Program-made: the position numbers and the translations under genes
Shown here: positions 25,452 through 58,200 of the stretch, piece by piece
How the letters are laid out: each line of letters begins with the position of its first letter
Numbering within the stretch: the first letter of the stretch is position 1
The notes under the pieces: generated by a model
Databases searched by the model: none
What the model was told of the DNA's origin: nothing
What the model saw: the letters and a program-made list of their open reading frames with translations, nothing else
From: Pseudaestuariivita atlantica
GTDB taxonomy: Bacteria; Pseudomonadota; Alphaproteobacteria; Rhodobacterales; Rhodobacteraceae
Length of the DNA: 64,000 nt
Direction of reading: 5' to 3'
Assembly: GCF_001205715.1 (NCBI RefSeq)
Contig: NZ_AQQZ01000004.1
Coordinates: forward strand, 434,001 to 498,000

Positions 25452-26732
25452 TCAGTCTTTCAGCAGCGCCTGCGCGCGGGCGACGGTGATCGGTCCGTCG
25501 CCGGCCGCCAGCGCCTTGGCCACACGGTCGACATCGGCACCTTCGGCCCCTGCCGTGATCGCGATGTTGCGGGCGTGAAGGGCCATGTGGCCGCGCTGGA
25601 TGCCCTCGGTGGCGAGCGCGCGCAGGGCGGCCATGTTCTGGGCGAGGCCGAGGCAGGCGGCGATCATGGCGAGTTCTCCCGCGCTGCTGACATCCAGTAC
25701 CTTCAGCACCGCCTGCGCGGCGGGGTGGGTGCGGGTGGCGCCGCCGACGAGGCCGAGCGCCATGGGCAACTCGATCCGCCCGACCAGCACACCTTCGTCG
25801 TCCCGCTCCCATGTCGTCAGCGCGGTGTAACGCCCTGATCTTGCGGCAAAAGCGTGGGCTCCCGCCTCGATCGCGCGCCAGTCGTTGCCGGTGGCGACGA
25901 CCAGCGGGTCGATGCCGTTCATGATGCCCTTGTTATGGGTCGCGGCGCGGTAGGGATCGACGATGGCGAAGGCTCCGGCCTCCACGATGCCCCGTGCCAC
26001 GTCCTCGCCTCGCAGCGCGTCGGTGGTCAGCGCCTCGGGCGTGACCCGCAGGCTGGCGCGGGCGAGGCGTTTGTCGGCGAGGTTCGACAGGATGCGGAGG
26101 CGGACGGTGCCGCCGGTCAGGTCCTCGATCCGGGGGGCGAGGGTTTCGGCCATGGTGTTGACCGAGTTCGCGCCCATCGCGTCGCGCACGTCGACCAGCA
26201 GGTGCAGAACCAGCATGGGGCCGACAGGCGTGTCGGGGAAGCGGTGCACCTCGATCCCGCGACAGCCGCCGCCCAGTTCGACCAGAACGGGGTCGCAAGC
26301 ATCTGTTTTTGAACGAATTTCTGCCTCCGCCTCGGTCAGCGCACGGCTCGCCGCATCAAGGTCGGAAACGCCCAGAATCTGGACCTGAGCCCGCATGACG
26401 GGCGGGTCGGCGTCGGCGGTGAAGCCGCCGCAGGAGCGCACGATCCGGGCCATGTAGGAGGCGGCGGCGACGACAGAGGGCTCTTCGACCGCCATGGGGA
26501 TCAGCACGTCGCGTCCGTTGATCCGGAAGTTGGTGGCGACGCCCATGGGCAGTTCGAACGTGCCGATCACGTTCTCGATCATGCCGTCCGCGACCGGCAG
26601 GGGCAGGGCGGATCCGGCGAGGCGGGCGGCCATGTCTGCATCCAGCCCGGCGGCGTCGGCCACCGCTTCGCGGCGGGCGTCGGGGGACAGGTTGCGCATC
26701 CCGGCGATACGGGAGGTGGGGGTTCTGGTCAT
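25452..26732 (-). CDS. mvaA: class II hydroxymethylglutaryl-CoA reductase
   Basis: Interconverts mevalonate and HMG-CoA. The 426-residue protein keeps all four catalytic residues of the Pseudomonas mevalonii enzyme at the same numbers: E83, K267 (in [11 protein letters not shown]), D283 and H381 (in GHMALHARN). The length is near the 428 of that enzyme, and there is no membrane domain. No mevalonate kinase, HMG-CoA synthase or lyase is adjacent, so a catabolic (mevalonate-using) or alternative role is possible. The organism's main isoprenoid route cannot be read from this window. Confidence 0.92.
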
Positions 26733-26769: not shown

Positions 26770-27186
26770 TCACGGATCGACCTTTCCGCGCAACGTCTTG
26801 ATTTCGCTCCGCTCTTTCTTGGCCTTGATGCGCCGTTCGATCGAGCCGCGGGTGGGCTTGGTCCGTATCCTCTTTTTCGGGGCGACCGTCGCGCGGCGGA
26901 TCAGTTCGGCCAGCCGGTCGCGCGCGATGTCGCGGTTGCGGGCCTGATGGCGTGTTTCGTCCACCTGGATCACGACCGCGCCGTCCTTGGTCCAGCGACG
27001 CCCGGCAAGCCGTTTCAGACGGGCCTTCACGGGTTGGGGCAGGTTGGGCGACCGGGCGGCTTCGAACCGCAACTCGACGGCGCTGGCGACCTTGTTCACG
27101 TTCTGCCCGCCGGGACCCGAGGCGCGCACGAACTGTTCGGTCAGTTCCCAGTCCTCGATCGTGATCTGGTCGGTCACCCGCAGCAT
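26770..27186 (-). CDS. arfB: alternative ribosome-rescue factor / peptidyl-tRNA hydrolase ArfB
   Basis: Releases peptides from stalled ribosomes. The 138-residue protein has the GGQ motif in [12 protein letters not shown] and a lysine/arginine-rich C-terminal tail that enters the empty mRNA channel. It is a backup to trans-translation, whose SmpB is also encoded in this window. The start MLRVTDQ is preferred over a frame to 27222 that runs into the TGTACA inverted repeats; those repeats would then be the operator or promoter region. Confidence 0.9.
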
Positions 27187-27200
27187 TCCGCGCCCCTGTT

Positions 27201-27241
27201 TTGTACAATTTGTACAGTTCACCCCTGCAAACTGTACAAAT
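27201..27241. promoter_or_regulatory. TGTACA inverted-repeat operator upstream of arfB
   Basis: Three TGTACA hexamers lie at 27202-27207, 27211-27216 and 27233-27238. The last two form an inverted repeat with 12-bp arms (ATTTGTACAGTT and AACTGTACAAAT) separated by about 9 bp. The first hexamer is itself in an 8-bp palindrome, TTGTACAA. The AT-rich block stands out in a GC-rich genome and sits just upstream of arfB, so it may be a repressor or activator site. The regulator is unknown. Confidence 0.6.
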
Positions 27242-27262: not shown

Positions 27263-27673
27263 TTAGCGTTGCACCGTCTGAAGGTAGGCCACCAGCGCCA
27301 GCAAATCCGCCGGAACGGGCAGGCCGGTGCCTTCGGGCGTTTCGATGATCACGGTCGGGCCAAGGCCCGAGGCGCCGAATTCCGGCATGGCCGATACGGC
27401 ATCTTCATCCGTCGTGTAGCCGTCGATCTTCCCCATCACGCGGAAGGTGGGGAAGGTGCCGCCATTGCGCCGGGCGAGCGTGGTGAGGTCGGGCGGGGCC
27501 TGCCCCAGCCCCAGCGATTCCGGTCCGCCGCCGCGCGCGTCCCTGCCGTGGCAGGCGGCGCAGTTTTCGGCGAAGAGCCGTTCGCCACGCGCCGCGTCGA
27601 TCCGGGGTTCGGGGGTCAGCGCGCATCCGGCGGTGAAAAGCGCCATCGCGGCGGTCAGGGTGATTTTCTGCAT
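27263..27673 (-). CDS. lipoprotein c-type cytochrome
   Basis: Protein of 136 residues. A lipobox ending in cysteine 17 (FTAGC) suggests a membrane-anchored periplasmic lipoprotein. The heme c site is CAACH (38-42), and M96 in SAMPEFG is the likely distal ligand. It is a small class I monoheme cytochrome whose redox partner is not indicated by neighbours. An FNR-type box lies 51 bp upstream of the start, so low-oxygen induction is likely. Confidence 0.88.
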   Translation of the reverse strand: MQKITLTAAMALFTAGCALTPEPRIDAARGERLFAENCAACHGRDARGGGPESLGLGQAPPDLTTLARRNGGTFPTFRVMGKIDGYTTDEDAVSAMPEFGASGLGPTVIIETPEGTGLPVPADLLALVAYLQTVQR

Positions 27674-27749: not shown

Positions 27750-27783
27750 AAAAAAGGGCCACTCCGGCGATGGAGCGGCCCTT
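27750..27783 (-). terminator. strong intrinsic terminator
   Basis: On the minus strand AAGGGCCGCTCC-ATCGCC-GGAGTGGCCCTT forms a 12-bp stem with one G-T pair, followed by a run of six T in all. It ends the transcript that contains the 18-codon frame at 27853-27909. Confidence 0.85.
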
Positions 27784-27852
27784 TCGAAAGTCCGGAGGTG
27801 GGGCCGGTTAGGCTCTCACCAAGTCAGGGTGTTTCGCACCCGCGGGGTTGCC

Positions 27853-27909
27853 CTAGAGGCGGACCTCCTGACCTGTTCCGACACCTCTCTCCAACATCTT
27901 TCTCGACAC
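27853..27909 (-). CDS. 18-residue small protein or leader peptide
   Basis: GTG start at 27909 and TAG stop at 27855-27853; product MSRKMLERGVGTGQEVRL. The binding site is unusually long: it is complementary to 18 nt of the 16S rRNA 3' end, with GGAGG 7 nt before GTG. The peptide is basic and soluble. A frame reaching back to 28065 in phase would run into the end of the transporter gene, so the short form is preferred. Function unknown; it could be a regulatory leader or simply a highly translated microprotein. Confidence 0.5.
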   Translation of the reverse strand: MSRKMLERGVGTGQEVRL

Positions 27910-27980
27910 TGGATCACCTCCTTTCTGAATGTTTCGCCTGACCGAATCGTTGCATGGAATTCCGGGCAGGCCAAACGAAA

Positions 27981-56935: not shown

Positions 56936-58087
56936 TCAGGCAGCCTGAGCGGTGATTTCGGCGTCGAAGGCGGCGGCAAGCCATGGCAGCATGGCGTCGA
57001 TATCCGACGTCTCCACCGTGGCACCGCACCAGATGCGCAGGCCCGGAGGGGCGTCGCGGTAGGCGCCGATGTCATAGGCGATGCCGTCCGCTTCAAGCCG
57101 CTTGGCCACCGCCTTGGCAAAGGTCGCGCCGTCACCGATGCGGGGATCGGTGAATTTCAGGCAGACCGAGGTGTTCGACCGGGTCGCTGGGTCCTCGGCG
57201 AGGAAATCGATCCAGTCATGCGCCGCGACGAAATCGGCGATCGCGGCGGCGTTTGCATCGGCGCGGGCAATGAGGCCCGAAAGCCCACCGACCGAGCGCG
57301 CCCAGTCAAGACAGTGCAGGTAATCCTCGACGCACAGCATCGAAGGCGTGTTGATCGTCGCCCCGGAAAAGATGCCGTCGATCAGCTTGCCGCCTTTGGT
57401 CAGGCGGAAGATCTTGGGCAGGGGCCATGGCGGCGTGTAGCTTTCCAGCCGCTCCACCGCGCGGGGGCTGAGGATCAGCATGCCATGCGCCGCTTCACCG
57501 CCCAGCACCTTCTGCCACGAGAAGGTCGTCACATCGAGCTTGTCCCATGGAAGGTCCATCGCGAAGGCGGCGGAGGTCGCGTCGCAGAGCGTCAGGCCCG
57601 CGCGGTCCGCCGGGATCACGTCACCGTTCGGCACCCGCACGCCCGAGGTCGTGCCGTTCCAGGTGAAACACACATCCGCGTCCCAATCGACGGCGGTCAG
57701 GTCGACGATCTGGCCGTACTCGGCGGTCGTCACCTTGGCATCGAGTTTCAGTTGCTTGATCGCGTCGGTGACCCAGCCGGAGCCGAAGCTTTCCCATGCC
57801 AGCATCTCGACCGGGCGGGCGCCCAGCATCGTCCACATCGCCATCTCGTAGGCGCCGGTGTCCGAGGCGGGCACGATCCCGATCTTGTAGTCTGCGGGGA
57901 TGCCCAGCACCTCGCGCGTGCCTTCGATGGCCGCTTTCAGCTTGTCCTTGCCCACGGCGGCGCGGTGCGACCGGCCAAGGGCGGCGTCGGACAGCTTGTC
58001 GAGCGTGAAGGCAGGGGGTTTGGCGCAGGGGCCAGAAGAAAAACGCGGGTTTGCCGGCCGCGCAGCCGGTTGTCGTGTATCGGTCAT
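56936..58087 (-). CDS. serC: phosphoserine aminotransferase
   Basis: PLP enzyme that makes 3-phosphoserine from 3-phosphohydroxypyruvate. The 383-residue protein is of the alphaproteobacterial type, with [14 protein letters not shown] at the start, the PLP lysine in [13 protein letters not shown], and [13 protein letters not shown] for phosphate binding. It is the first gene of serC-serA and has a structured leader upstream. Confidence 0.93.
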
Positions 58088-58200
58088 GATACCCTTCCAG
58101 ATATATGCCCCTCGTTGGGGAGGGGTGTCCCACGGACGGGGGTATGGCCATCGCGCGGGGGGCGCAAGCCCAAATGGCGCAGCCGTGCGGTGCGTCGCGG
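58088..58200 (-). promoter_or_regulatory. serC 5' leader with hairpin, candidate serC RNA motif
   Basis: On the minus strand just upstream of the serC ATG are GGAAGGG, then going upstream an AT-rich ATATAT, a CCCCT...AGGGG hairpin (58108-58125) and further GC-rich repeats. A conserved serC leader RNA is known from alphaproteobacteria. This leader has a comparable position, but I could not match its consensus from memory. Confidence 0.35.

Follow-up and report, generated by a model that had tools for sequence, protein, structure and literature searches.

CC2171 (Rfam RF01867) is a catalogued Caulobacter sRNA without known function, and its description as shown in Rfam mentions neither an open reading frame nor a match to 16S rRNA. 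A CC2171 homologue in Mesorhizobium huakuii has been listed with a 215-nt RNA-seq product (PMC5596092). Most ncRNA regions of Caulobacter are untranslated, while two were reclassified as translated (Schrader et al. 2014, PMC4117421); this statement counts against a ribosome-engaging reading of such RNAs, and CC2171 may be of either kind. Two other described systems are relevant, namely rnTrpL of Sinorhizobium, which derives from the trpE attenuator and starts directly with AUG (PMC10117765), and the mRNAs of Staphylococcus aureus, in which SD-anti-SD pairing is longer than usual (PMC13009471).

Results

A stand-alone RNA gene related to CC2171

We analysed a 64,000-nt stretch of the Pseudaestuariivita atlantica genome (the window), whose minus strand carries a stand-alone RNA gene of about 180-185 nt with promoter, mini-ORF, long-range structure and terminator. 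Its features are as follows, with the basis of each assignment in brackets.

27969-27974, minus strand: TTGGCC, -35-like box of a putative own promoter (by position; window copy degenerate)
27946-27951, minus strand: AACGAT, putative -10-like box (by spacing and the xAnnnT pattern common to relatives)
27909-27926, minus strand: extended Shine-Dalgarno (SD) site, 18-nt complement of the 16S rRNA 3' end (sequence, genome search, relatives, pairing energy)
27890-27913, minus strand: start-codon hairpin, UCCAGU (27913-27908) with GUUGGA (27895-27890) (RNAalifold, pair counts)
27853-27909, minus strand: 18-codon mini-ORF, GTG start, TAG stop at 27855-27853 (stops of relatives, frame control)
27804-27807, minus strand: CCGG, pairing with UCGG of ORF codons 10-11 (27881-27878) (two-sided changes in three of four pairs)
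27794-27800, minus strand: internal anti-SD copy CACCUCC, pairing with GGAGGUG (27921-27915) (consensus structure, pair counts)
27786-27790, minus strand: pre-terminator CUUUC, pairing with GAAAG of ORF codons 3-5 (27902-27898) (permutation test)
27750-27781, minus strand: intrinsic terminator, GGGCCGCTCC-loop-GGAGTGGCCC-TTTTTT (sequence, folding; covarying helix 4)

A preliminary description of this locus had reported the 18-nt 16S match and, behind it, an 18-codon GTG frame and a terminator, all of which we found in place and with the sequence described. It had also held that no named family has this design, a claim that must be withdrawn: with cmscan, the whole element (27933-27755) matches the full length of the CC2171 model (positions 1-159) at 37.4 bits (E ~1e-6). 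This score is half the RF01867 gathering cut-off of 75 bits, which the window element does not reach, and clear relatives lie above the cut-off, in Rhizobium (L131), Bosea (L087), Brevundimonas (L127), Microvirga (L148), Falsiroseomonas (L118) and Pseudorhodoplanes (L179), the first five scoring 75.5-91.5 bits. Judged by these matches, the window element is a divergent relative of CC2171.

Of 61 genomes sampled with BLAST, 28 contained the element, and almost all of these were Rhodobacteraceae. A covariance model built from 42 sequences and searched in 120 Rhodobacteraceae genomes matched 110 at E<=1e-3 and 105 at E<=1.5e-7; each genome had a single strong match. The element as first outlined, about 180 nt comprising an extreme ribosome-binding site, a frame that looks translated, a structured part and a terminator, is strongly conserved. 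Class-wide, the exact string GAAAGGAGGTGATCCARTG occurs in 30 of 385 genomes, at a single site in each, against none for the reversed control pattern; AAGGAGGTGATCCARTG is present in 36 of 113 Alphaproteobacteria versus 0 of 186 other Pseudomonadota. The 16S core GGATCACCTCC is common to Gammaproteobacteria too. The CC2171 model itself reached E<=1e-3 in 66 of 289 genomes of a class-wide sample and exceeded its cut-off in only 10. By these searches, relatives of the element are found across Alphaproteobacteria.

The 16S-complementary site

The SD site, AGAAAGGAGGTGATCCAG, occupies 27926-27909 of the minus strand and is an exact 18-nt complement of CTGGATCACCTCCTTTCT; the G at 27909 is both its last base and the first base of the GTG start. 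It is the sole match in the 4.34-Mb genome at two or fewer mismatches, a tolerance at which the reversed control pattern gave one hit. The 16S 3' end of P. atlantica itself was searched for in the assembly and not found; in seven genomes of other Alphaproteobacteria, including two Rhodobacteraceae, the 16S 3' end reads exactly CTGGATCACCTCCTTTCT. Pairing of the window SD with a 20-nt 16S tail is predicted at -35.7 kcal/mol, compared with -10.8 on average and -21.4 kcal/mol at best for the 132 window ORFs of at least 200 codons, a naked-RNA value that exceeds the one in the ribosome because the CUGG end of the tail belongs to helix 45. The working duplex in the ribosome is thus probably shorter than the naked-RNA match.

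Conservation of the 16S match in relatives, which the preliminary description had put forward as a check, holds: AAAGGAGGTG is kept in 95 of 95 relatives retrieved without requiring the motif, and ATCCA mostly so, an invariance partly conditioned by the search, which was anchored on the first 11 bases with at most one mismatch. Two changes are frequent, A12->G (20) and A16->G (15), and both retain a G-U pair with 16S. In some relatives the 3' half is shortened or mismatched (GGTGCCAATG, GGTGCTTCAG), and therefore the full 18 nt are not essential; across the relatives compared, the rule is a match of 11 nt always and usually of 16-18 nt. Opening the SD from its own fold is predicted to cost about 8 kcal/mol in the window copy and 10 on average, and the predicted 16S duplex energy exceeds this cost in all 197 alphaproteobacterial elements. 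We also considered covariation of the start base (GTG or ATG) with the adjacent 16S C or U and rejected it, G050 having an ATG start with 16S CTGG. Two relatives (L205, L209) lie off-centre in their own contigs and were mis-anchored in one comparison of relatives.

Fold, promoter and terminator

The window RNA folds more stably than 200 of 200 shuffles (z -4.0). In the consensus structure (RNAalifold, pair counts) 97.3% of cells are paired, versus 93.3% when shuffled and at most 58% when slid, and 11 pairs change on both sides, mostly in the terminator and in the codon 10-11 helix, whose consensus 3' partner is CCGRC. The start-codon hairpin (consensus UCCAGU/AUUGGA) is paired in 98% of cells and its changes are one-sided only. 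The SD/anti-SD helix likewise varies one-sidedly and always compatibly (CACCUCC, CGCCUCC, CAUCUCC, with G-U pairs), which in this alignment is weaker evidence than the other helices offer; the anti-SD copy is the best internal complement of the SD in many relatives, and in one relative (L017), 14 consecutive pairs between the SD and its internal complement are kept despite an A-to-G change in the SD. In Alphaproteobacteria other than Rhodobacteraceae, an internal SD complement beats shuffles at the 5% level in only 34 of 116 elements, and by this count it is frequent there, not universal. For the helix that joins the first ORF codons to the pre-terminator segment, a permutation test was used: codons 2-6 fit their own segment better than those of other elements, the exceptions being 7 of 2000 permutations for the Rhodobacter type and 0 of 2000 for the other Alphaproteobacteria. 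The terminator is a GC-rich hairpin followed by six Ts.

Rhodobacter-type relatives have a promoter of their own as well as a terminator; TTGACA stands 46-50 nt (about 48) upstream of GAAAGG in them, and transcription in the window would be expected to start near 27940. The promoter spacer of Rhodobacteraceae relatives (e.g. L007, L014, L020) is conserved and palindromic, TTGACAAACACAAAATCTGTGTCA, which suggests a regulator site; the window copy does not have it.

Start and stop are kept while the peptide drifts

The window mini-ORF consists of GTG and 17 more codons and would encode MSRKMLERGVGTGQEVRL. Among 46 Rhodobacter-type copies the stop falls at codon 19 in every one (TAG 27, TGA 11, TAA 8), and codons 16-18 are among the most variable despite this fixed stop. 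The stop of this type is T-purine-purine, and three of the four such codons are stops, so structure could contribute to its constancy there. A class-wide frame control is free of this weakness: of 69 mutually divergent alphaproteobacterial representatives, viral genes being kept out, 61 have their first in-frame stop within codons 14-26, whereas the other two frames give 13 and 6.

The preliminary description had presented a basic peptide as the product, and this part did not survive comparison. Even within the family the peptide diverges at codons 13-18; across the class it is unrecognisable, with lengths from 14 to 26 or more residues. Entropy per codon position, a simple measure and not a codon-model test, is 0.88/0.88/0.84 in the 46 copies, third positions being no freer than first and second, and gives no sign of purifying selection on the amino acids. 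The N-terminal MSH/MSR/MSS is probably an RNA constraint, since covariation links the first ORF codons to the pre-terminator segment. These substitution patterns indicate that the start codon and the stop position are under selection and that the peptide is not.

Neighbouring genes

In Rhodobacteraceae, the element lies between a VUT-family transporter gene and arfB. Of the 32 loci scanned that have an 18-codon frame, 26 encode an ArfB-like protein with an RF-1 domain downstream on the same strand. The window genes concerned are the following.

26770-27222, minus strand: ArfB-like ribosome-rescue protein (RF-1 domain), whose gene immediately follows the element in many Rhodobacteraceae
27263-27673: cytochrome c gene, between the element and the ArfB-like gene in the window

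Outside Rhodobacteraceae no conserved neighbour was found, the 148 neighbour proteins falling into 73 Pfam families, each seen at most three times. Such unrelated neighbours make it more likely that the element would work in trans rather than on a neighbour gene; within Rhodobacteraceae, a family-specific link to arfB is possible. Elsewhere on the minus strand, the window holds a serC leader (58084-58135; RF00517, 73.2 bits) and an HMG-CoA reductase gene (25452-26732; PF00368, E 1.5e-109).

Candidates in other phyla and in phages

A contig motif scan supplied cross-phylum candidates, and what follows concerns those among the matches listed. Seven sequences from Phycisphaerales (L088, L093, L139, L154, L084, L162, L078) have a like layout, with an extended SD, an ORF of 9-12 codons, a conserved TCGACGG segment, a large structured region upstream, and a helix between the last ORF codons and a downstream arm. 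A second set among the matches listed, from Krumholzibacteria (L095, L109), Acidobacteria (L107), Myxococcales/Lujinxingiaceae (L120, L137) and an unclassified deltaproteobacterium (L180), is mutually alignable around GAGGTGGYG...TA(G) at the ORF end, with an extended SD, an ORF of 14-21 codons, a G-rich GGGCC after the stop, and a structured domain on the 5' side. None of these non-alphaproteobacterial RNAs matched Rfam at gathering cut-off; the other families considered gave only sub-threshold noise, together with CC2171 at E 0.011. With few sequences and weak covariation, these RNAs are a lead rather than a result. We think it possible, if on balance doubtful, that they and the alphaproteobacterial RNAs form a bacteria-wide, so far unrecognised class of ribosome-engaging mini-mRNAs, each with a full-length 16S-complementary SD, a start, 9-26 dispensable codons, a fixed stop in structured context and a terminator, which would monitor or buffer free 30S subunits in Alphaproteobacteria, Phycisphaerales, Krumholzibacteria, Acidobacteria, Myxococcales and perhaps others.

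In the viral contigs (L291-L356), the same 14-nt SD complementary to 16S precedes the genes of many phage proteins, either structural or small and basic. Spread of the element by phages was considered and rejected, most viral matches being ordinary phage genes with this SD; at least five resemble host elements. The extended SD alone is therefore not diagnostic.

Discussion

As far as comparison of sequences can show it, selection acts on the SD (11-18 nt), the start, a stop at fixed distance, a closed long-range fold and the terminator. We somewhat favour the reading that the element is a single-copy, stand-alone RNA gene of a class-wide CC2171-related family whose conserved role lies in loading a ribosome and afterwards letting it go, a switch opened by the 30S subunit in which translation matters and the peptide does not. 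While the RNA is free, two interactions would keep its SD and start codon closed, that with the internal anti-SD copy and that of the first codons with the pre-terminator segment. An incoming 16S 3' tail could then enter at the exposed GAAA end and displace the internal helices, because its match is the longer one, and translation of the mini-ORF up to its stop would hold the RNA open. In this way the RNA would either report on initiating 30S subunits that are free or tie them up. Its output might be the sensing of free 30S, the occupation of ribosomes, or action of the freed 3' part on targets in trans, the last of which we purely infer.

Internal pairing of the SD with an anti-SD copy points to a switch rather than to a permanently open bait, and it bears directly on the constitutive decoy or hibernation RNA sequestering 30S that the preliminary description had suggested. 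A "bait" or "tight hold" of the ribosome is hypothetical; it would fit the very strong predicted 16S pairing and the stand-alone gene, but a pure decoy needs neither a masked SD nor a stop kept at fixed distance, and a single gene copy would have to compete with abundant 30S unless its expression were extreme, so we regard it as unlikely. The stop, together with the conserved start and frame, would instead suit a conventional mRNA that pairs a maximal ribosome-binding site with a tiny functional peptide, and phage genes placing the same extended SD before ordinary proteins indicate that such a site can serve strong translation. Against this stand the divergence of the peptide within and beyond the family, the lack of excess synonymous change, and the coincidence of the conserved codons with RNA helices, which together leave a peptide-encoding role rather unlikely.

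Frame-specific conservation of the stop has no place in a conventional trans-acting sRNA that base-pairs through its SD-like block with C-rich or anti-SD-like targets and whose ORF is incidental; this possibility seems to us quite improbable, even though Rfam classes CC2171 as an sRNA gene and the element is without a conserved neighbour outside Rhodobacteraceae. Least probable of all is a cis-acting leader or attenuator, serving in Rhodobacteraceae the downstream ribosome-rescue gene arfB. The same-strand ArfB-like gene at 26 of 32 loci speaks for it, but the synteny is confined to Rhodobacteraceae, no family elsewhere accounts for more than 3 of 148 neighbour proteins, and in the window the cytochrome c gene intervenes.

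If the translation-dependent switch is the true reading, bacteria would keep a dedicated RNA in which nothing of the coding part is conserved except the sites where a ribosome starts and stops. Gripping the 16S tail as strongly as is possible, such an RNA would directly read out the level of free ribosomes at the molecular level, or buffer it. Cells must sense free ribosomes to control growth, and to our knowledge few dedicated RNA sensors of them have been described. Although CC2171 trims the novelty of the element, the finding is larger than first described, being that of a class-wide mini-mRNA with apparently dispensable coding content.

Comparison with known systems

In the literature searched we found nothing directly relevant to such a design. 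The element shares with rnTrpL/peTrpL of Sinorhizobium a short translated ORF in a small structured RNA ending in a terminator; unlike rnTrpL, it has an extended SD and is neither linked to a biosynthetic gene nor conserved in its peptide, and the conserved downstream gene typical of trpL systems has a counterpart only within Rhodobacteraceae, in arfB. The extended SDs of S. aureus mRNAs and of phage genes likewise pair with 16S over more than the usual length, but they precede real proteins, whereas the product of the element is unconserved and its site lies in a closed fold. With tmRNA the element has in common a small size and a mini reading frame whose end lies in a structured region, but it is without a tRNA-like domain, and ARAGORN detected neither tmRNA nor tRNA in the window.

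CC2171 is the system with which most is shared: the 5' block GAAAGGAGGUGAUCCAGUGUC, identical in the aligned window match, the helix of the first ORF codons with the pre-terminator segment, which is drawn in the Rfam structure line, the terminal hairpin, and the stand-alone gene. The two differ in peptide, middle region and ORF length (18 codons versus 25 in a Caulobacter-type relative), and the Rhodobacter type adds the 3' CACCUCC anti-SD copy and the GUCGG/CCGAC helix. For an Rfam entry without known function, the family is here shown to span the class and gains a frame in which function can be tested. New here is the conservation of start codon and stop position alongside an unconserved peptide.
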